Assembly: GCA_030832185.1 (NCBI GenBank)
Contig: JAURJQ010000030.1
Span: 1-53,724 of the forward strand
DNA length: 53,724 nucleotides
Reading direction: 5' to 3'
Origin: Chitinophagales bacterium
GTDB lineage: Bacteria; Bacteroidota; Bacteroidia; Chitinophagales; JADJOU01
Position 1 is the first letter of the stretch, and every line of letters begins with the position of its first letter. The position numbers and the translations under genes were made by a program. Shown here piece after piece: positions 1 to 11,934 of this stretch. The notes under the pieces are model-generated. The model did not search any database. It saw only the letters and a list, made by a program, of their open reading frames with translations, and was not told where the DNA came from.

Positions 1-124
1 GACGCTGTACGAATCTCCCTTTGTTTCTGCTATTCATCGTGAAAAGATGTATGGCGTTCAGTTTCACCCAGAAAAAAGTCATGATCAAGGGCTCCAAATG
101 ATAGAAAATTTTATTAAGTTATGA
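1..124 (+). CDS. HisH-like glutamine amidotransferase, C-terminal end (partial)
   Basis: The window opens inside this gene; reading from base 2, about 40 codons remain before the TGA at 122-124. They contain GVQFHPEKS, the class I glutamine amidotransferase motif carrying the catalytic His and Glu that complete the Cys-His-Glu triad. Such subunits hydrolyse glutamine and pass ammonia to a HisF-type partner, and that partner starts inside this stop codon (ATGA overlap). The downstream N-acetyl sugar amidotransferase points to a WbuY-type surface-sugar role rather than histidine synthesis. The nucleophile Cys lies outside the window. Confidence 0.85.
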   Translation, partial: TLYESPFVSAIHREKMYGVQFHPEKSHDQGLQMIENFIKL

Positions 125-894
125 CCTATCGTCCACGCATAATCCCTGTACTATTGCTGCATGATGGAGGTTTGGTGAAATCGGTTCAATTCAAAGACTA
201 CACCTATATCGGTGACCCTATGAATGCGGTGAAGATATTTAATGAAATGAATGCCGATGAACTTATTTTCCTAGATATCACTGCCAGTAAGCAAGGTAGG
301 ACTATGTCTAAAGAACTAGTGCGGGTGATAGGTGAAGAAGCTAAAATGCCTTTCTGTGCAGGTGGTGGGATTCGCAGTTTAGACGATATTCAGCATTTAG
401 TGCAGGCGGGTGCAGAGAAGGTGGTACTCGGTCACAGTGCCGCGAGCAATCCATCTTTTGTCCGAGAGGCCAGTCGTGCCTTTGGTTCATCTACCGTCAG
501 TGTATGTATCGATATCAAAAAGGATTTCTGGGGCAGAGAAAAAATATGGTCAGAAAATGGCAAGCTATCACATAACTATACACCTAAAGAGTTTGCACTC
601 CGCATGGAGGAAGCTGGGGCAGGCGAACTGGTGATTCAATCTATTCAGCGCGATGGCACTCTACAGGGCTATGATATAAACTCTATTCAAGATATAGCTC
701 AGGCGGTAGCGATTCCCGTTGTAGCATTGGGTGGTGCCGGCAGTCTAGCCCATCTTCATGCGCTTTATCAAAAAGTAAATGTGAACGGATTGGCGGCAGG
801 GAGTATATTTGTATTCCATGGTATACATAAAGGCGTATTAATTCAGTATCCTACTATCAATCAAAAAGAAGTTATATATGCAGATAGTGAATAG
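121..894 (+). CDS. wbuZ: HisF-like glycosyl amidation protein (WbuZ-type)
   Basis: This is a 257-residue TIM-barrel protein of the HisF family. True HisF cyclases have two catalytic aspartates. The second is present (Asp131 in VCIDIKKD). The first, in the LDVKDG motif, is Leu12 here (IIPVLLLHDGG). A LLL in this place is, from memory, typical of the HisF homologues found with N-acetyl sugar amidotransferases (WbuZ/HisF2 group), so a role in histidine synthesis is unlikely. The likely job is to take ammonia from the HisH-like subunit and deliver it for amidination of an acetamido sugar. It overlaps hisH by 4 bp and the next gene by 17 bp, so the three are translationally coupled. Confidence 0.85.
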   Translation: MTYRPRIIPVLLLHDGGLVKSVQFKDYTYIGDPMNAVKIFNEMNADELIFLDITASKQGRTMSKELVRVIGEEAKMPFCAGGGIRSLDDIQHLVQAGAEKVVLGHSAASNPSFVREASRAFGSSTVSVCIDIKKDFWGREKIWSENGKLSHNYTPKEFALRMEEAGAGELVIQSIQRDGTLQGYDINSIQDIAQAVAIPVVALGGAGSLAHLHALYQKVNVNGLAAGSIFVFHGIHKGVLIQYPTINQKEVIYADSE

Positions 895-1999
895 GCCCTA
901 CCAAATATGCGTTCGATGTGTCATGGATACTTCGGATGAGGATATTCGTTTTAATGAGCAAGGGGTCTGTCATCATTGTCGTGATTTCGAAGAGGTACTC
1001 CGTCAGCCCAGGTATGATAAGGCCAAAGCGCCCGCTGCACTCGAAGCACTCATAAAACGTGTCAAGGAGGCATCGGCAGGTAAATCCTATGACTGTATCA
1101 TAGGTATTAGTGGTGGAGTGGATAGCTGCTATACGGCTTATCTCTGTCATTCTTGGGGTCTTAGACCACTGCTATTGCACATGGATAATGGCTGGAATTC
1201 GGATATCTCAGCCTCCAATATCAAAAATCTTATCGATAAATTGGGTCTAGACTATATGAGTTACGTACTAGACTGGAATGAATTTCGTGAGATACAATTA
1301 GGCTTTATTCGGTCATCGATCGTCGACATCGAATTGCCAACGGATATAGCTATTCCAGCAGCCTTGTACGAGGTCGCTTCAAAAAATTCTATACCATTTA
1401 TTATTTCCGGGGGCAATTATTCTGGAGAAGGTATACTGCCTCTAACCTGGGGATATCATGTGCTCAAAGATGCTTATCTGTATCGGTATATTGTCAAGAA
1501 ATTTTCTAAAGTAAAATTGAAAAAAGTTCCAGTGGTAGGTCTTTGGGAAGAAATTTATTATAAATTTTTGAAGGGAATTTGTACGCTTTACCCCCTCAAT
1601 TTAGTAGATTATGATAAGGATAAGGCTCGCCAGTTTTTAAAAGACAACTACGGATGGCGTGATTATGGGGGGAAACATCACGAGTCTCGTATTACGGCTT
1701 TTTGGCAGTCATACGTCATGCCTACGAAGTACAATATGGACTATCGTAGGGCGACCTATTCTTCTATGATAGTCTCAGGACAGATATCCAGAGAAGAGGC
1801 TTTGAAAGGATTGGATGCTCTCTCTTACCAGGAAGAAAAAATACCATCAGAAAAAGAATATATAGCTAAAAAATTTAATATCTCTACCCAAGAGCTAGAC
1901 CGCTATCTCAGTCAGGCACCGAAAACGTATAAAGATTTTCCGAATCAGAAGAATTTGATTCAATGGTTTTATAAAATTTATGGCATAGTGTTTAATTAA
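878..1999 (+). CDS. wbuX: N-acetyl sugar amidotransferase (WbuX/WbpG-type)
   Basis: This 373-residue protein has a PP-loop ATP-pyrophosphatase motif, SGGVDS, at about residues 77-82. In front of it lies the four-cysteine cluster (C11, C14, C31, C34) seen in sugar amidotransferases. The family adenylates an acetamido group on a nucleotide sugar and replaces the oxygen with ammonia supplied by the HisH/HisF-like pair, giving an acetamidino sugar for O-antigen or flagellin glycans. The ATG lies inside the end of the hisF-like gene. The exact sugar substrate cannot be read from this window. Confidence 0.88.
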   Translation: MQIVNRPYQICVRCVMDTSDEDIRFNEQGVCHHCRDFEEVLRQPRYDKAKAPAALEALIKRVKEASAGKSYDCIIGISGGVDSCYTAYLCHSWGLRPLLLHMDNGWNSDISASNIKNLIDKLGLDYMSYVLDWNEFREIQLGFIRSSIVDIELPTDIAIPAALYEVASKNSIPFIISGGNYSGEGILPLTWGYHVLKDAYLYRYIVKKFSKVKLKKVPVVGLWEEIYYKFLKGICTLYPLNLVDYDKDKARQFLKDNYGWRDYGGKHHESRITAFWQSYVMPTKYNMDYRRATYSSMIVSGQISREEALKGLDALSYQEEKIPSEKEYIAKKFNISTQELDRYLSQAPKTYKDFPNQKNLIQWFYKIYGIVFN

Positions 2000-2128
2000 A
2001 TAACGAAATGCCCCCAGTTATTATTAATTTGTTGTTCTTTACATCATATATAAATGTAAGTGAATTAGTCACATCTTAAATATTTTTTACAGTATTTGTT
2101 GTAAACGTTAACTAATTAAAATCATACA

Positions 2129-3028
2129 ATGAAATATATTTTTAAAGAAATTAAACAGTGCGAAATGTGTAATGATAAATCAAATTCGCATTACAAAATT
2201 GGTCAAAGATTTAATAAGTCGCAAGGATTATTCCCAAGGAAAAAGACTGGATTAACAGTTACGGTAAATAAATGTAGTAATTGTGGTTTGATATATTCTA
2301 ATCCTATGCCTATTCCATTAGATATTTTAGATCATTATGGAGTTCTGCCTAAAGACTATTGGAAACCTGAATATTTCAATATTTTGCCTGATATAGAATA
2401 CTTAAAGAGTGAAATAGCAAAATACATTGACATTCATGCCTCCCCTAAAGTTCTTGACATCGGTTCTGGTATAGGTAAAATGATGAAAGCCTTTATTGAT
2501 AATGGATTTGATGCTTATGGGATAGAGCCTTCTCCTAGTTTTATTGAAATGGCAGTTAATAAAATGAAAATACCAAAAGAAAGGTTGCAATGTGTACAAG
2601 TAGAGGATGCGGAGTTTGAGGAAAACTTTTTTGATTTGATTACTTTTGGAGCAGTTTTTGAGCATTTATATCACCCATCAATAGCTCTTAAAAGAGCTCT
2701 AAGATGGTTAAGACCTGGAGGATTAGTAAAAATCCAAGTACCTTCTGCTAATTGGCTTACTGCAAAATTCTTGAACATATGGTATAAAATTACTTTTCAA
2801 GATAATTGTACTAATTTAAGCCCAATGCATACTCCTTATCATTTGTATGAGTTTTCATTAAAGTCATTTAGAAAAAATGCAGAATTGAATGGATATGAGA
2901 TTGTGGGAGTTCATTATGAGATATGTGATACTTTCTTACCGCGTATTTTTGACAGAATAATTAAACCCATAATGAAAAAAACCAATACAGGCATGGAGAT
3001 TTACCTATTATTAAGAAAGCCATTGTAG
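2129..3028 (+). CDS. Class I SAM-dependent methyltransferase with N-terminal cysteine pairs
   Basis: This 299-residue protein starts with two CxxC pairs (C11/C14 and C49/C52), probably a small zinc-binding unit. A class I methyltransferase fold follows: the SAM-binding motif VLDIGSGIGK is at about residues 108-117, and a second motif (FDLITFGAVFEHL) lies further on. The arrangement is common for methyltransferases in polysaccharide clusters, where they methylate sugars or close glycans. It stands 129 bp after the sugar amidotransferase and is noticeably more AT-rich than the genes on either side, which suggests separate acquisition. Its substrate is unknown. Confidence 0.75.
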   Translation: MKYIFKEIKQCEMCNDKSNSHYKIGQRFNKSQGLFPRKKTGLTVTVNKCSNCGLIYSNPMPIPLDILDHYGVLPKDYWKPEYFNILPDIEYLKSEIAKYIDIHASPKVLDIGSGIGKMMKAFIDNGFDAYGIEPSPSFIEMAVNKMKIPKERLQCVQVEDAEFEENFFDLITFGAVFEHLYHPSIALKRALRWLRPGGLVKIQVPSANWLTAKFLNIWYKITFQDNCTNLSPMHTPYHLYEFSLKSFRKNAELNGYEIVGVHYEICDTFLPRIFDRIIKPIMKKTNTGMEIYLLLRKPL

Positions 3029-3037
3029 TTTTTTACC

Positions 3038-3085
3038 ATGTGTGGCATTGCCTGGTTTTATTGATTTTAACAAAAGGTGCGAGTA
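3038..3085 (+). pseudogene. 5' remnant of a second asparagine synthase gene
   Basis: At 3038 an ATG opens a stretch reading MCGIA, then, after skipping one extra T at about base 3053, GFIDFN. This is the invariant N-terminus of class II asparagine synthases, including the catalytic Cys2. It aligns base by base with the start of the intact asnB at 4476 for about 35 bp, with three substitutions and one insertion, and similarity then stops. The unaltered frame ends at TGA within nine codons. This is a decayed 5' scrap of an asnB copy, cut off just before the DUF4143 ATPase gene. Confidence 0.7.
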
Positions 3086-3148
3086 CTCCTTCCCTCCCTT
3101 CGCTAAAGTAGTTTAAGAAAGTGAAAACAACACACAATTAATCAAATT

Positions 3149-3206
3149 TTATAATTATATTTACAAAATAGCCATTATTTTTGTAAAGTTATAATTACGG
3201 TTACAA
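3149..3206 (+). repeat. Two 18-bp direct repeats, 40 bp apart, before the first ATPase gene
   Basis: The sequence TTATAATTAYRKTTACAA occurs at 3149-3166 and 3189-3206, with 15 of 18 positions identical and starts exactly 40 bp apart. A possible -7 box, TATTTTTG at 3176-3183, lies between the copies, so a bound protein could control this promoter. The core (AATTA followed by a short GT-rich part) loosely resembles the 32-bp-period repeats at 6410 and 6882, which also precede DUF4143-type genes. Confidence 0.5.
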
Positions 3207-3225
3207 TTTATAGATTTAAATTTAT

Positions 3226-4464
3226 TTGAAACCCAGCCACACTTTATTATCAATACCTGAGGATCTTGTATCGAGGGCTCGCTATATTGATGCTATTCGA
3301 CCCTATATAGGCAAACAAGTTATCAAAGTATTCACTGGTCAGCGAAGGGTAGGTAAGAGCTATCTTTTGTTTCAGATGATAAATTGTATAGCAGACCTAG
3401 ACCATCAAGCGACATTTATATATATAAATAAAGAGGATCTAAGGTTTGATTTTATAAAGAATGCCCATGATTTGAGCGAATATGTTCTTCAGCATCTATC
3501 TGAAAAAGGAAAAACATATTTATTTATAGACGAAATTCAGGATATTCTTGATTTTCATACAGCTCTGCGTTCATTGCACCTCCATGAGAATCTGGACATT
3601 TATTGTACAGGTAGCAATGCCAATATGCTCTCTAGCGATATATCAGGCTATTTAAGTGGTCGGTTTATCGAGTTGACCGTATACAGTCTGGCATACACTG
3701 AATTTTTAGAATTTCACGGGTTAATAGATAGCAGTATTAGTCTAGATAAATACCTGAAATATGGAGGATTGCCTTATTTGAGACATTTGCCTTTAGAAGA
3801 TGAAATCGTATGGGAATATTTAAAAAATGTCTACAATACTATTGTTTATAGAGATATTGTGCAGCGATTTAATATCCGAAGCACCCATTTTTTAGAGCGT
3901 CTAGTCTTATTTTTAGCATCAAATACGGGCAGTCTATTTTCCGCAAAAAAAATTAGCGATTTCTTGAAATCTCAGCAGCTGAATATGGCACCTAATCAGG
4001 TGCAGACATATATCGGTTATCTTCTCAACTCATTTATACTACTCGCAGCACCTCGATACAATATACAGGGAAAGAGATTGTTTGAAATTGGCGAAAAATA
4101 CTATTTTGAAAATCTAGGAATTCGAAATGCTATATGGGGCTATCGACTGGAAGATCGCGGCAAAATATTGGAGAATGTAGTTCATAATCACTTGAGAATG
4201 CTTAATTACTCAGTAAAAGTAGGCGTATTGGGCAACCAAGAAATTGATTTCGTAGCAGAGAAGCATGGAGAAGTTTTATATATCCAGGTTTCGCTCCAAC
4301 TCATAGAAGAAAAAACGATAGAGAGAGAGTTTGGCAATTTGCTCAGCATTAAAGATAATCATCCTAAAATATTGGTTACCTTAGATTCCTATACGGGCAA
4401 TACGGTAAAAGGAATTCAAGTCAAATCTTTAGCAGAGTTTTTATTGATAGAAAAATTTCACTAG
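3226..4464 (+). CDS. AAA ATPase with DUF4143-type C-terminal domain (copy 1)
   Basis: This 412-residue protein has a Walker A motif GQRRVGKS at residues 38-45 and a Walker B motif YLFIDEIQ near residue 100. It has the usual layout of the family: N-terminal AAA_14 ATPase, winged-helix middle and C-terminal DUF4143 domain. In the C-terminal domain the nuclease-like motif reads EIDFVAEKHGEVLYIQVS. The Asp is kept, but the ExK pair of PD-(D/E)xK enzymes is replaced by QVS, so nuclease activity is doubtful. The start is TTG. The gene ends 11 bp before asnB and is probably transcribed with it. No function has been established for this very common family. Confidence 0.8.
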   Translation: MKPSHTLLSIPEDLVSRARYIDAIRPYIGKQVIKVFTGQRRVGKSYLLFQMINCIADLDHQATFIYINKEDLRFDFIKNAHDLSEYVLQHLSEKGKTYLFIDEIQDILDFHTALRSLHLHENLDIYCTGSNANMLSSDISGYLSGRFIELTVYSLAYTEFLEFHGLIDSSISLDKYLKYGGLPYLRHLPLEDEIVWEYLKNVYNTIVYRDIVQRFNIRSTHFLERLVLFLASNTGSLFSAKKISDFLKSQQLNMAPNQVQTYIGYLLNSFILLAAPRYNIQGKRLFEIGEKYYFENLGIRNAIWGYRLEDRGKILENVVHNHLRMLNYSVKVGVLGNQEIDFVAEKHGEVLYIQVSLQLIEEKTIEREFGNLLSIKDNHPKILVTLDSYTGNTVKGIQVKSLAEFLLIEKFH

Positions 4465-4475
4465 AAAAATAACCC

Positions 4476-6386
<1,911 letters not shown>

Positions 6387-6409
6387 TACATTTTTCATAA
6401 AATAACAAT

Positions 6410-6493
6410 AATTGGAGCGTATATTTTCCATTATAATACACAATTATAGCGTATATTTATCAACACAATATTTAATTATGGCGTAAAATTGTC
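6410..6493 (+). repeat. Three-unit direct repeat array, period 32 bp (array A)
   Basis: Units start at 6410 (AATTGGAGCGTATATTTTC), 6442 (AATTATAGCGTATATTTATC) and 6474 (AATTATGGCGTAAAATTGTC), exactly 32 bp apart. About 20 bp of each unit is conserved and the rest varies. The same unit with the same period occurs at 6882-6965. In both arrays the third unit starts 38 bp before a -7-like box; here that box is TGTCTTTA at 6512-6519, a weakened form of TATCTTTG. A 32-bp period is about three helical turns, which would place bound proteins on one face of the DNA. Confidence 0.75.
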
Positions 6494-6875
6494 AATTGAT
6501 TTAAAAATAGTTGTCTTTATAAGTAATGTCAATCCACATTTGTCGGGCAGTGAATTTGAATCAGCTATCGTAGCAGAAATGTATAAGCAGCTACAGTATT
6601 TAGATATCGATGCCAGTGTCTACCATCTCCGCACCAGTGACGGGCGCGAAGTGGATTTATTGATAGAGACCCCTCAAGGCTATTATGCTTTTGAAATTAA
6701 AATGTCTTCAAACTACAATCACACAGACAATCGACATTTGAGGAATTTAGAAGAGATATTAGACAAACCCTTATTGCATTCTTTCGTTCTATCACAAGAT
6801 ACCAAACCTAATCAAACGAATAGCGCTATCACCGCTGTGCATGCAGCGGACTTTCTCACCTCAATAATCACATAA
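6489..6875 (+). pseudogene. Truncated DUF4143 gene: C-terminal domain only
   Basis: An open frame of 128 codons from a TTG at 6489 closely matches the last 115 or so residues of the intact ATPase at 7000-8250. Shared blocks include GREVDLLIETP, YNHTDNRHLR and LDKPxLHSFV. The Walker motifs and the entire ATPase part are absent. Upstream, repeat array A and a decayed -7 box sit where they do in the intact copy. This is best explained by an internal deletion of about 0.9 kb in a duplicated module. The PD-(D/E)xK-like core (D...EIK) is kept, so a stand-alone domain could still be made, but there is no good start codon. Confidence 0.75.
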
Positions 6876-6881
6876 TTGAAC

Positions 6882-6965
6882 AATTAGGCGTAAATTATCG
6901 CATATCATTCAATAATTCGGCGTAAATTATCGCATATTATCCAATAATTCGGCGTAAATACTTGC
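6882..6965 (+). repeat. Three-unit direct repeat array, period 32 bp (array B)
   Basis: Units start at 6882 (AATTAGGCGTAAATTATCGC), 6914 (AATTCGGCGTAAATTATCGC) and 6946 (AATTCGGCGTAAATACTTGC), exactly 32 bp apart. The first two differ at only one position over 20 bp. The third unit runs into the -33 TTG of the promoter at 6962-6991, so a protein bound here should affect transcription of the ATPase at 7000. This looks like a set of iteron-type operator sites. It is too short and too diverged for a CRISPR array. Confidence 0.8.
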
Positions 6966-6991
6966 ATTGTAAAAATAATGTATTATCTTTG
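6962..6991 (+). promoter_or_regulatory. Bacteroidota-type promoter of ATPase copy 2
   Basis: TTG at 6962-6964 is followed, after 19 bp, by TATCTTTG at 6984-6991, an exact match to the TTG-N19-TAnnTTTG pattern of Bacteroidota. Only 8 bases separate the box from the ATG at 7000, so the mRNA would have little or no leader. Confidence 0.65.
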
Positions 6992-6999
6992 CTGTCGAA

Positions 7000-8250
7000 A
7001 TGGATAAGGAACGACTTCTAGTTGGTGAAATTAAAAGGCAGCAGACCAAGCGGTTTGGCAGAATAGTCATCTTGACAGGAGCTAGACAAGTCGGTAAGAC
7101 CACATTACTTCGCCATCAATTTTCAGATTATCAATATATAAATATTGATGATCCACAAATCCGAAGAGTTTTGATGGGGCTTTCGTCCACACAGTGGGCT
7201 AGCAATTATCCAGAAGTCATCCTAGATGAAGTGCAGAAAGAACCGCAACTCATGGATATAGTGAAAGCGGTCTATGATCTTCAGAAAGGAAACAAATTCA
7301 TTCTCACAGGCTCAAGTCAGCTATTGCTGCTCAGCCAGATACGGGAGTCACTCGCTGGGCGATGCACTATTTTGGAATTATTTCCACTGACACTGCCAGA
7401 GCTAAAAACTAATGGATGGGGTGATGTCCCAAAGCTTTCATTATTTCAGAGAATACTCACAGGGGAGAAGGTTCCTGAGCTCCTACCATTTACCCTAACG
7501 AAAGATTACGATCAGTCGATAGAAGTGTATCAGTATTTCTTGAAGTACGGAGGTTATCCCGCTCTGGTAGCGGATGATTTGGACGATCAAGATCGCAAAC
7601 AATGGCTTCGAGATTATCAGACTACCTACCTAGAGCGCGATATACGAGATATAGCAGACTTCAAAAATTTAGAACCATTTATTCTTATTCAGCGAATCAG
7701 TGCATTGCTCACCGGGAATCAACTGGGCTATACACAGCTAGCAAAGGAAGCTAAAGTGCATCTCAATACCGCCAAGCGTTATTTGCAGTATCTCTCTATG
7801 AGTTATCAGGCTATTTTGCTGCAGCCATGGTTCAAAAACGAATTGAAGCGATTGTCCAAAGTTCCTAAATTGCACTATCTGGATATAGGAATAGCACGCA
7901 GTGTTACGAATAATTTTGATGGAGAATTGAAAGGAAATGAATTTGAATCGGTGGTGGTATCTGAAATCTATAAGCAACTAAAGTATATGCCTGGACATTA
8001 TGATTTGTATCATCTTCGAACGCACGATGGTCGAGAGGTAGATTTACTCATAGAAACACCCAAGGGTTATTTCGCATTTGAGATCAAGATGACTTCACAT
8101 TACAATCATACAGACAACAGGCATCTGCGACACTTAGACGAGATTTTAGATAAACCCATCTTGCATTCTTTTGTCATTACCCAAGACTTAATGCCAAATC
8201 AAAATGAAAAAGATATCACCGCTTTACATGCCGCTCAATTTCTCACCTAA
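7000..8250 (+). CDS. AAA ATPase with DUF4143 domain (copy 2)
   Basis: This 416-residue protein has Walker A GARQVGKT at residues 27-34 and Walker B EVILDEVQ at about 72-79. A winged-helix region and a C-terminal DUF4143 domain follow. That domain contains GREVDLLIETPKGYFAFEIKM, in which the Asp and the ExK pair of the PD-(D/E)xK fold are intact, unlike copy 1. It is encoded just after repeat array B and its own promoter. The truncated copy immediately upstream is its closest relative here. A glycosyltransferase starts 3 bp downstream. The function is unknown; the family behaves as accessory, frequently duplicated DNA. Confidence 0.82.
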   Translation: MDKERLLVGEIKRQQTKRFGRIVILTGARQVGKTTLLRHQFSDYQYINIDDPQIRRVLMGLSSTQWASNYPEVILDEVQKEPQLMDIVKAVYDLQKGNKFILTGSSQLLLLSQIRESLAGRCTILELFPLTLPELKTNGWGDVPKLSLFQRILTGEKVPELLPFTLTKDYDQSIEVYQYFLKYGGYPALVADDLDDQDRKQWLRDYQTTYLERDIRDIADFKNLEPFILIQRISALLTGNQLGYTQLAKEAKVHLNTAKRYLQYLSMSYQAILLQPWFKNELKRLSKVPKLHYLDIGIARSVTNNFDGELKGNEFESVVVSEIYKQLKYMPGHYDLYHLRTHDGREVDLLIETPKGYFAFEIKMTSHYNHTDNRHLRHLDEILDKPILHSFVITQDLMPNQNEKDITALHAAQFLT

Positions 8251-8253
8251 ACT

Positions 8254-9489
8254 ATGACCAAAAATATACTCTACATTTCCTACGATGGCATGACAGATCC
8301 ATTGGGTCAGAGTCAGGTGCTGCCCTATATCTGCGGCTTATCTGCACAAGGGTATAGCTTCACTTTGATTAGTTGTGAGAAGCCAGATAGATATGAAAGC
8401 AATAAGGAGGATATAGAAAAAATTTGTACAGATAATGGCATCGATTGGAGACCATTGATGTATCATAAATCTCCACCAATACTATCGACGGTCTGGGATG
8501 TCAATCAGATTCAGAAATTGGCTTATCGTCTTGAAGAAGAAAAATCATTTTGCCTTGTACATTGTCGCGGATATATTTCAGCATTGATAGGACTGGGAAT
8601 GAAACGGCGCTATGGTACGAAATTTCTCTTTGACATGCGTGGACTCTGGGCAGATGAAAAGGTAGATGCCGGAGCGTGGAGATTAGAAAACCCTATTTAT
8701 AAATTGGTCTATAGATTCTTTAAGAAAAAAGAGAAAGAGTTTTTCTTAAATGCTGACCACACTATAAGCCTTACCCAGAGAGGAAAAAAAGAAATCCTAT
8801 CGTGGGATTATATGCATGGGAAGCCAGATAATATAGAAGTCATACCCTGCTGTGCAGATATGGATTTGTTTGATTTTAATAAATTAGATTCTAATAGTGT
8901 TCAGGGTTGGAAAAACAAATTACAGATTTCGGATACAGATTTTATAGTTTCTTATCTTGGCTCTATCGGCACGTGGTATATGCTAGAAGAAATGCTAGAT
9001 TTTTTCAAAGTGGTAAAGACGAAATGGACAAATGCCAAGTTTTTATTTATCACGCATGATGAACATGAAAAGATTAGAGAGGCAGCGAGAAGCAGAAACA
9101 TATTGTCAGACATCATCCTACAACCTGCGCAGAGAAAAGAGGTGCCCGAAATCCTCAGTTTATCAGCTTTTTCTATTTTTTTCATACGTCCTTCCTATAG
9201 TAAAATAGCAAGTAGTCCAACCAAGCAAGCCGAAATCATGGCGATGGGTATTCCGCTCATCTGCAATGAAGGTGTAGGCGATACCGATACTATTGTGAAA
9301 AGTAATCTTGTAGGAGTGACCATTTCAGATTTAAATCAGTCCAACTATATGAAATTAATAGAAGACTTTGATTATACACTATATAATAAAGAAAAAGTAA
9401 GAATGTCTGCTTTGAATTCGTTTGGTTTAGAAAATGGCGTGGGAAAATACAATTCTGTTTACTTGAAAATATTAAGTGCTGAAATCTAA
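8254..9489 (+). CDS. Glycosyltransferase, GT4-like
   Basis: This 411-residue protein has an N-terminal Rossmann-like half (ILYISYDGMTDPLGQSQVLPYI), typical of GT-B enzymes in polysaccharide clusters. Its C-terminal half has the donor-binding region (SSPTKQAEIMAMGIPLICNEGVGDT), the usual place of the conserved E of GT4 enzymes. It should transfer a sugar from a nucleotide donor to a growing lipid-linked glycan on the inner face of the membrane. It begins 3 bp after the ATPase stop and overlaps the next glycosyltransferase by 14 bp. Donor and acceptor cannot be told from the sequence. Confidence 0.8.
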   Translation: MTKNILYISYDGMTDPLGQSQVLPYICGLSAQGYSFTLISCEKPDRYESNKEDIEKICTDNGIDWRPLMYHKSPPILSTVWDVNQIQKLAYRLEEEKSFCLVHCRGYISALIGLGMKRRYGTKFLFDMRGLWADEKVDAGAWRLENPIYKLVYRFFKKKEKEFFLNADHTISLTQRGKKEILSWDYMHGKPDNIEVIPCCADMDLFDFNKLDSNSVQGWKNKLQISDTDFIVSYLGSIGTWYMLEEMLDFFKVVKTKWTNAKFLFITHDEHEKIREAARSRNILSDIILQPAQRKEVPEILSLSAFSIFFIRPSYSKIASSPTKQAEIMAMGIPLICNEGVGDTDTIVKSNLVGVTISDLNQSNYMKLIEDFDYTLYNKEKVRMSALNSFGLENGVGKYNSVYLKILSAEI

Positions 9490-10561
9490 ATCCATATTAT
9501 TCGTATGCCCCTACCCGAGAGGAGTCGCGCCATCGCAGCGTCTGAAATTCGAACAATATTTTCCAATATTTAGAGACGCTGGATACGAACTAAATTTCGA
9601 ATCATTTCAAAGTATTTCATTTTGGAATACCGCCTATTCATCTAAAAATATTCCACTAAAAATACTTTGGACAATCTATGGATACGCCATGCGGTTTTTT
9701 TTAATATTCAGAATTAGAAATTATGATATTGTATATATCCATCTATGGGTGACACCTCTAGGTCCTCCCATTTTCGAATGGTTGTATACTAGGCTGGCTC
9801 GAAAAATTATCTATGATATCGATGATCTGGTGTATACTGAAAATGCGAGTGCTGCCAACTCTTGGATGACTAGATTGAAGGGAAAACAAAAGCCGATATA
9901 TCTTATGAAGCAGGCAGACCATATCATTACTACTACTTCCTACTTGGTTGATATCTGCAGAAAATATAATCAATATGTGACGAGTATACCACCTTCATTA
10001 GATGATAAAATTATTTATCCAATCAAAAAAATTCAAGAAGACAGAATACGAATTGGCTGGCTAGGAAGTCACTCTACGGAGCAGTATTTAGATGTAGTTA
10101 GAGATGCTATACAAAAGATTAACAAAGAATATGATATCCGATTAATATTGATGGGGGCAGAGAATTTTTCTATTGATGGATTGGATATAGAGCGACATGA
10201 GTGGTGTCAAGATAAGGAAAATGAAGTCTTAAATAAAATAGATATTGCTTTATACCCTCTCCGAAAAGAGCTATGGAGTGAAGGGAAATTCGGTGGAAAA
10301 TTAATTCAGTATTTTGCCGCTGGACTACCAAGTGTTGTTTCGAATGCGAATGCCAGTAATCGAGAAGTGATTTTAGACGGGGTCAATGGATTGCTGGTAG
10401 ATAATTTAGTCGAGTCATGGTATTTAGCCATGAAAAAACTCATCGATAACGAACAACTTAGAATGCAAATAGGTCACAATGCTCGACAAGAGTTTCTAAA
10501 TAATTACTCCATAGAGGCGAATAGAATGAAATATATTCATATTTTTGAATCCGTCTTGTAG
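9476..10561 (+). CDS. Glycosyltransferase, GT4-like
   Basis: This 361-residue GT-B protein starts at a GTG inside the end of the preceding glycosyltransferase, so the two are coupled. The N-terminal region is ILFVCPYPRGVAPSQRLKFEQY. An internal YDIDDLVY motif is common in this group. The C-terminal half has GKLIQYFAAGLPSVVSNANASNREVI, the donor-binding area. It is the last plus-strand gene of the glycan cluster, before a 171-bp gap and a minus-strand group. The specific sugar is unknown. Confidence 0.8.
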   Translation: MLKSKSILFVCPYPRGVAPSQRLKFEQYFPIFRDAGYELNFESFQSISFWNTAYSSKNIPLKILWTIYGYAMRFFLIFRIRNYDIVYIHLWVTPLGPPIFEWLYTRLARKIIYDIDDLVYTENASAANSWMTRLKGKQKPIYLMKQADHIITTTSYLVDICRKYNQYVTSIPPSLDDKIIYPIKKIQEDRIRIGWLGSHSTEQYLDVVRDAIQKINKEYDIRLILMGAENFSIDGLDIERHEWCQDKENEVLNKIDIALYPLRKELWSEGKFGGKLIQYFAAGLPSVVSNANASNREVILDGVNGLLVDNLVESWYLAMKKLIDNEQLRMQIGHNARQEFLNNYSIEANRMKYIHIFESVL

Positions 10562-11383: not shown

Positions 11384-11689
11384 TCAACTATTCCTAGTTG
11401 GTAATTTTTCGGGATCTTGAGCGGTATGAAAAATGTCTAGTATCTCAATGATATTTGTTTTTCGTTCAAAAATAATTTTGAAATTATAAACTAAGATAAA
11501 CTTTTTTAACTCAAGTTCAGGTTCATTGCTGCCAAGATTGGGATATACACAAAGTTGTTCTATATTTTCTACAATATTATTTACGACCATTTCAGCCACA
11601 TCGTCAGAACCTACCTGAGAGTAATAATTATATATTTCTTGCAAGCATTGTGACGCAAATGGCGAAATAAAAATTTCTACTTCTTCCAT
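11384..11689 (-). CDS. ParE/RelE-family toxin
   Basis: This 101-residue protein has the features of the ParE/RelE fold. An N-terminal SPFASQCLQEIYNYY helix is followed by the helix with VAEMVVNNIVENIEQLCVYPNLG, and then by strands ending in IIFERKTNIIEILDIFHTAQDP. Members either poison gyrase (ParE) or cut mRNA on the ribosome (RelE). The IFHTAQDP ending is common in the ParE branch. It overlaps its antitoxin gene by 13 bp, as is usual for type II pairs. Confidence 0.8.
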   Translation of the reverse strand: MEEVEIFISPFASQCLQEIYNYYSQVGSDDVAEMVVNNIVENIEQLCVYPNLGSNEPELELKKFILVYNFKIIFERKTNIIEILDIFHTAQDPEKLPTRNS

Positions 11690-11913
11690 GAAGCGATATC
11701 CGTGCGCAGTTGTTCTAATGTGATTCCTTTTCCAGCTGCTATCTGATTTGAAGACAATTCTAGCCTATTTCTCAATCCTTCTTCAGTTGAAGGGTCTAAA
11801 TTAATATCCTTATTCAAATCGTGTATAACCCCAGAAACATATTTCAAGAAATACACATCAGAGATAGAATCTATATAATCCTTTATTTTCTTTTTCTCTA
11901 AAACTATGTCCAT
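11677..11913 (-). CDS. Antitoxin of the ParE-type pair
   Basis: This small 78-residue protein lies directly upstream of the toxin and overlaps it by 13 bp. The C-terminal part (LSSNQIAAGKGITLEQLRTDIASWKK) looks like the short toxin-wrapping tail of Bacteroidota antitoxins, which often contain an 'I..G...T.E.....' pattern. No clear DNA-binding domain can be recognised by eye. A -7 box, TATATTTG, lies on the minus strand at 11935-11942, giving a leader of about 15 bases. Confidence 0.7.
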   Translation of the reverse strand: MDIVLEKKKIKDYIDSISDVYFLKYVSGVIHDLNKDINLDPSTEEGLRNRLELSSNQIAAGKGITLEQLRTDIASWKK

Positions 11914-11934
11914 CGTAGGAAAATTTAACTATCA

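Follow-up and report, generated by a model that had tools for sequence, protein, structure and literature searches.

Period-locked repeat arrays at the promoters of AAA_14/DUF4143 genes and the probable binding of these arrays by the encoded ATPase-nuclease

Two homologous repeat arrays lie close together in the DNA analysed here (the window, a stretch of 53,724 nucleotides), one before an intact gene of the AAA_14/DUF4143 family and the other before a gene remnant, which raises the question of what recognises such repeats. The comparative evidence points to the gene product itself: the encoded ATPase-nuclease probably binds the array at its own promoter and thereby regulates its own expression.

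As claimed in a preliminary description of this DNA, each array comprises three units, and the unit starts given there (Table 1) are borne out by the cores, which are exactly 32 bp apart in both arrays. Array 1 is the weaker (29 bits at period 32, units agreeing at 18-22/32 positions) and array 2 the stronger (70 bits, units 1 and 2 agreeing at 29/32); 0/2000 dinucleotide-preserving shuffles scored as high at any period, the shuffle maxima being 23 and 19 bits. A CRISPR array was considered and rejected, as there are only three units and the repetition extends over all 32 bp of each, with similarity grading from 29/32 to 20/32 in array 2. With up to two mismatches allowed, the array 2 unit core GGCGTAAATTATYGCA has no second location in the 2.2-Mb genome, which its relatives place in Bacteroidota. 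The consensus of the Bacteroidota -7 box is TAnnTTTG. In array 2, such a box, TATCTTTG, follows 38 bp after the start of the third unit, which also overlaps the TTG of the -33 element, as had been described for the intact copy. The 38-bp distance had been claimed for both arrays; it stands for array 2, while the counterpart box of array 1, TGTCTTTA (6512-6519), is degenerate. Likewise, only one array of the two precedes an intact DUF4143 gene, rather than both, because the open reading frame behind array 1 is a C-terminal remnant. Array 2 is proposed as the operator of the intact gene.

Table 1. Coordinates of the arrays, promoter, genes and protein domains in the window
Feature	Position	Strand	Remarks
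Array 1	6410-6505	+	units 6410/6442/6474; cores GCGTAWA at 6417/6449/6481; precedes gene remnant
Remnant of AAA_14/DUF4143 gene	6489-6875	+	retains the nuclease-like C-terminus, without ATPase or winged helix
Array 2	6882-6977	+	units 6882/6914/6946; cores GCGTAAA at 6888/6920/6952
Bacteroidota-type promoter	6962-6991	+	TTG (-33) 6962-6964 within unit 3; TATCTTTG (-7) 6984-6991; read from sequence
Intact AAA_14/DUF4143 protein	7000-8250	+	PADLOC PDC-S01 candidate; proposed array 2 binder; AlphaFold mean pLDDT 94.1
AAA ATPase domain	7057-7419	+	about residues 20-140; Walker A GARQVGKTT
Winged helix-turn-helix	7672-7878	+	residues 225-293, AlphaFold model
Recognition helix	7759-7800	+	residues 254-267, HLNTAKRYLQYLSM
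PD-(D/E)XK nuclease-like domain	7933-8229	+	residues 312-410; E346, D348, E361, K363

The intact protein matches Pfam AAA_14 (PF13173; E 2.5e-28, 99.1 bits against a gathering score of 27), Pfam DUF4143 (PF13635; E 5.2e-33, 114.5 bits against 28.1) and, over its full length, the PADLOC PDC-S01 models (E 5.1e-81, residues 20-409 of 416). Across 58 homologues (a set from which plasmid-derived sequences were left out), the ATPase residues G27, G32, K33, D76 and E77 are invariant, as are E361 and K363 of the predicted nuclease signature, with D348 nearly so; E346 of this domain is likewise invariant or nearly invariant. The AlphaFold model, which is of high confidence, shows an AAA domain, a winged helix and a C-terminal domain bearing the PD-(D/E)XK signature. 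Its winged helix comprises helices 225-236, 244-251 and 255-267 and strands 271-274 and 290-293 (a three-helix HTH with a beta wing); H254 and N256, at the start of the recognition helix, align with the two positions that covary with the repeat sequence in clade 6 of the family. A sequence search against solved structures gave no useful match to the protein; by fold, the archaeal ATPases PABY2304 and SSO1545 are nearest (Z 16), followed by STAND ATPases of the NLR/CED-4 type and Orc1/Cdc6.

Over 6507-6860, the remnant aligns with residues 298-416 of the intact protein at 65% identity, and it covers only model positions 105-159 of Pfam DUF4143. A second copy of the gene, since deprived of its ATPase and winged helix, accounts for the remnant and array 1. 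In its first unit (TTGGAGCGTATA), array 1 is closer to the array in G003 than array 2 is, and hence the two arrays would seem to represent two old lineages, not a recent duplication. The window contains three genes of the family in all; around the likely promoter of the third (3226-4464), two copies of TATAATTAyrkTTACA lie 40 bp apart at 3150-3210, possibly as an operator of its own. The surroundings look like a surface-polysaccharide gene cluster, with the defence-candidate genes standing among sugar-amidotransferase-like, asparagine-synthase-like and glycosyltransferase-like genes (121-10561), and the asnB neighbour is also kept in G003 and G024. Further along, on the minus strand (11384-11915), a ParE/RelE-like toxin ORF (11384-11689) has a short ORF directly upstream that looks, by eye, like an antitoxin.

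The association of array and gene extends to relatives of the same genus or family. Three orthologues with 59, 57 and 53% identity to the intact protein (L010, L011 and L012, respectively) each have three units spaced by 32 bp, with GCGTAAA as the core and a TAnnTTTG box downstream. When 298 genomes of the order were searched for three GCGTAWA cores with this spacing, the pattern was matched five times at 0-1 mismatch, twice in the window (array 1 without any mismatch) and once in each of the three relatives, always at these DUF4143 genes and at no other site. The array is thus present in 4/4 family orthologues, four being the number known with full arrays in the window's clade, and the 0-1-mismatch pattern is not found away from such genes in the 298 genomes; both observations agree with the association proposed in the preliminary description. 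At two mismatches, the three matches are near background (nine for a control pattern), and one of them, in another family (L030), lies directly before a DUF4143-type gene with a different unit. More distant relatives from Bacteroidales (52-55% identity) have the core in one or two copies and lack the full array. No relative of the protein was found in viral contigs, and exact unit-core matches there numbered 11, fewer than the approximately 50 estimated by chance. In the G050 orthologue (L012, about 1430-1520), a 44-bp tandem duplication spans the 5' leader, the start codon and the first codons, resulting in two starts behind the array.

A survey of family promoters (-220 to +30, with the upstream regions of other genes at the same loci as controls) indicates that repeats are widespread in the family. 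In 119 genomes of the order, 40% of the DUF4143 genes had direct repeats scoring above 22 bits, against 5.6% of controls, with a period of exactly 32 bp in 33 cases; an independent replication on 197 genomes of the class gave 28% against 4.8%, with 32 bp again the commonest period. After removal of proteins more than 70% identical, such repeats were present at 75/211 family genes and 23/406 controls (5.7%), a period of 31-33 bp at 47/211 and 0/406, and long inverted repeats at 87/211 and 34/406; overall, 63% of the 211 family genes and 13% of the 406 controls had either a direct array or a long inverted repeat at the promoter. The remaining 37% of family genes had neither above threshold, and some small clades (for example, clade 11) had almost none. 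Since AT-rich intergenic DNA commonly contains tandem repeats, and some controls do exceed 22 bits, the arrays might be regarded as neutral tandem duplications; however, the absence of the 31-33 bp period from all controls, as well as the retention of the array in orthologues of only 53-59% identity, argues against this reading. The median distance between array end and start codon is 23 bp, and a TAnnTTTG box follows the array start in 47/70. The geometries across the family range over two to six units with periods of 22-23, 32-33 or 36-37 bp, or a single long inverted repeat, and so the layout of three units at 32 bp, which holds for the window and its orthologues, is one geometry among several. 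Relatives on alphaproteobacterial plasmids (Sinorhizobium, Agrobacterium, Novosphingobium, Sulfitobacter and Phyllobacterium) have 22-bp repeats just upstream of the start codon, which exceed 22 bits in Sulfitobacter only and score 15-20 bits, with 22 bp as best period, in the others. The Sulfitobacter plasmid relative (L257) adjoins genes for a restriction endonuclease and for a Qat anti-phage protein.

An analysis of 232 genes by protein clade revealed that the period is fixed within a clade while the unit sequence diverges. In clade 6 (68 genes), 85% have a period of 31-33 bp, and the arrays above 22 bits are spaced by 32 bp in 38 cases and 33 bp in two, although the unit sequences differ widely among members; this locking of the period among units that share little sequence is a further argument against neutral duplication. 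Clade 9 (41 genes) has no 31-33 bp period; instead, 80% of its genes, compared with 15% of controls, have one long inverted repeat that scores above 18 bits. A period of 22-23 bp characterises clades 2 and 3 and part of clade 10. Paralogues within a genome differ as well: G024 has four paralogues with four different arrays, and across the genomes with several arrays, the motif was alike in 0/28 pairs formed within a genome.

It is generally known that operator arrays at promoters are mostly bound by dedicated regulators, and the arrays could accordingly be the target of a distinct transcription factor whose own gene lies elsewhere in the genome and which controls the ATPase gene. Given that no same-genome pair was alike, each paralogue would then need a factor of its own; moreover, no neighbouring gene family recurs at more than four of 58 clade-6 loci, and the unit sequence follows the recognition helix of the ATPase itself (see below), which makes a separate factor very unlikely. 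A two-gene toxin-antitoxin module was likewise rejected, as no conserved adjacent partner was found at the 58 loci.

Direct binding by the ATPase is suggested by the covariation of unit sequence and recognition helix. Motif similarity increases with protein identity (Mantel, 0/300). For 55 clade-6 arrays, the part of it that overall identity leaves unexplained was compared with each region of the protein, and the association was strongest at the recognition helix in the winged-helix domain (partial r 0.205, against a maximum of 0.149 in 500 permutations). The best single column was N227, which is residue 3 of the S-K-N-T stretch (0.361). With helix classes defined by the first and third residues of that stretch, and k-mers chosen by a scan of about 600 words per class, clade 6 pairs SxN with GTCAA (11/16 vs 0/52), DxN with GTGAA (6/6 vs 2/62), DxK with ATTCC/GGAAT (8/15 vs 3/53) and DxE with TCGCA. 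The DxK-GGAAT pairing recurs in clade 10, where most sites take the form of inverted repeats (21/28 vs 2/52, p 2e-11; non-redundant, 16/23 vs 2/48), in a test computed after the clade-10 list had been viewed. The SxN-GTCAA pairing was found in 0/12 there, and with the link also weak on the tree, a universal helix code was rejected. Closer to the window, L001 and L011 have the unit GGCGTAAATTATYGCA in common and are identical in the recognition-helix stretch (VHLNTAKRY), whereas L010, whose overall similarity is like that of L011, differs from L001 in both.

Shared ancestry alone might also leave similar proteins with similar motifs. When the helix columns are omitted from tree building, both traits change 19 times on the tree, and the tree-independent pairs favour the same direction over the opposite by 4.8 to 0 for DxK-GGAAT, 3.9 to 0 for DxN-GTGAA and, weakly, 1.7 to 0.2 for SxN-GTCA. 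Helix and motif therefore change together on independent branches, with none opposite for DxK and DxN, and neutral duplication or ancestry alone is left as an extremely improbable account of the arrays. Of the binders named in the preliminary description, a repressor or the ATPase itself, the comparative evidence favours the latter, in view of the motifs that track the helix, the helix classes paired with repeats in two clades and the lack of a recurrent neighbouring regulator.

Under the favoured reading, self-binding with autoregulation, the winged helix of the PDC-S01 ATPase-nuclease would read the array unit, and several protomers would line up across the -33/-7 region, each a set number of helical turns from the next (three turns in the window's clade), holding expression of their own gene low. 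Assembly may well be cooperative, via the ATPase domains, because the whole-turn spacing stays constant while the sequence changes, and repression appears more plausible than activation because the array overlaps the promoter and start codon. Upon invasion or cell damage, the complex would presumably be released and nuclease expression would rise; we also infer a defence role for the intact gene. The bound array could alternatively be a platform for assembly or anchoring, in the manner of origin or partition sites, and not mainly a transcriptional operator. The fold resemblance to archaeal Orc1/Cdc6 and STAND ATPases, the two to six units with whole-turn spacing (as in origin or iteron arrays) and the conserved nuclease residues are compatible with such a platform; nevertheless, the position of arrays close to start codons, with promoter boxes behind their starts, and the lack of array copies away from the promoter in the window's family make it unlikely. 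A bolder extension of autoregulation is a one-protein switch, in which a STAND-like ATPase-nuclease is parked as an oligomer on a private, rapidly diverging array whose geometry the oligomer dictates, and in which invasion dislodges it, derepression thus being equivalent to nuclease release; this is put forward tentatively, as a possibility that is rather doubtful at present.

PDC-S01 is ranked as the fourth most common defence in prokaryotes in a 2026 survey (39,480 copies, of which 29,494 are bacterial and 9,986 archaeal), whose sections on PDC-S01 list an ATPase and a PD-(D/E)-X-K domain, state that validation is pending for most such candidates, describe no mechanism and make no mention of promoter repeats, DNA binding or autoregulation (PMC12988326). 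In Thermus thermophilus, the DUF4143 gene TT_P0211 is up 6.6-fold with a plasmid, only when Argonaute is present (PMC4406477), and thus at least one relative is conditionally expressed. The preliminary description knew of no system with this layout, which accords with the open-access literature searched: its passages on DUF4143, COG1373 and PDC-S01 hold no description of promoter arrays, and no such arrays were found in that on autoregulated ATPase defence genes and 32-bp repeats. Arrays with a clade-fixed period and a helix that predicts their unit give PDC-S01 a defined DNA ligand, and binding, autoregulation and induction are therefore directly testable. Furthermore, the family provides a natural collection of winged-helix proteins with paired sites, usable for learning a recognition code.

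The window protein belongs to the same family as the PDC-S01 candidate defence genes, with the ATPase fused to PD-(D/E)XK, and its proposed behaviour has partial counterparts in several known systems. Archaeal Orc1/Cdc6 proteins combine an AAA+ ATPase with a winged helix that reads repeated boxes (origin-recognition-box repeats), often beside their own gene. The likeness here is one of fold (2qby and 1w5t), while in the window protein the winged helix is followed by PD-(D/E)XK and the units lie over the promoter at fixed whole-turn steps. Partition ATPases of the ParA/SopA type use an HTH and operator repeats to repress the operon that encodes them, as is proposed for the window protein; the latter, however, is of another ATPase family, without a ParB-like partner gene, with a nuclease domain and with paralogue-specific units. 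Defence genes are also controlled by an HTH protein at the promoter in the BrxR/CapW, C-protein and toxin-antitoxin systems, as reviewed in PMC12255303, although a separate regulator or antitoxin acts there, whereas in the present case the effector itself would regulate. Lastly, IniR (PMC5760070) is also an ATPase containing an SSO1545-like domain, and it binds a promoter, as is proposed here; it activates another operon, however, and has other C-terminal domains and a DNA-binding domain of another type.
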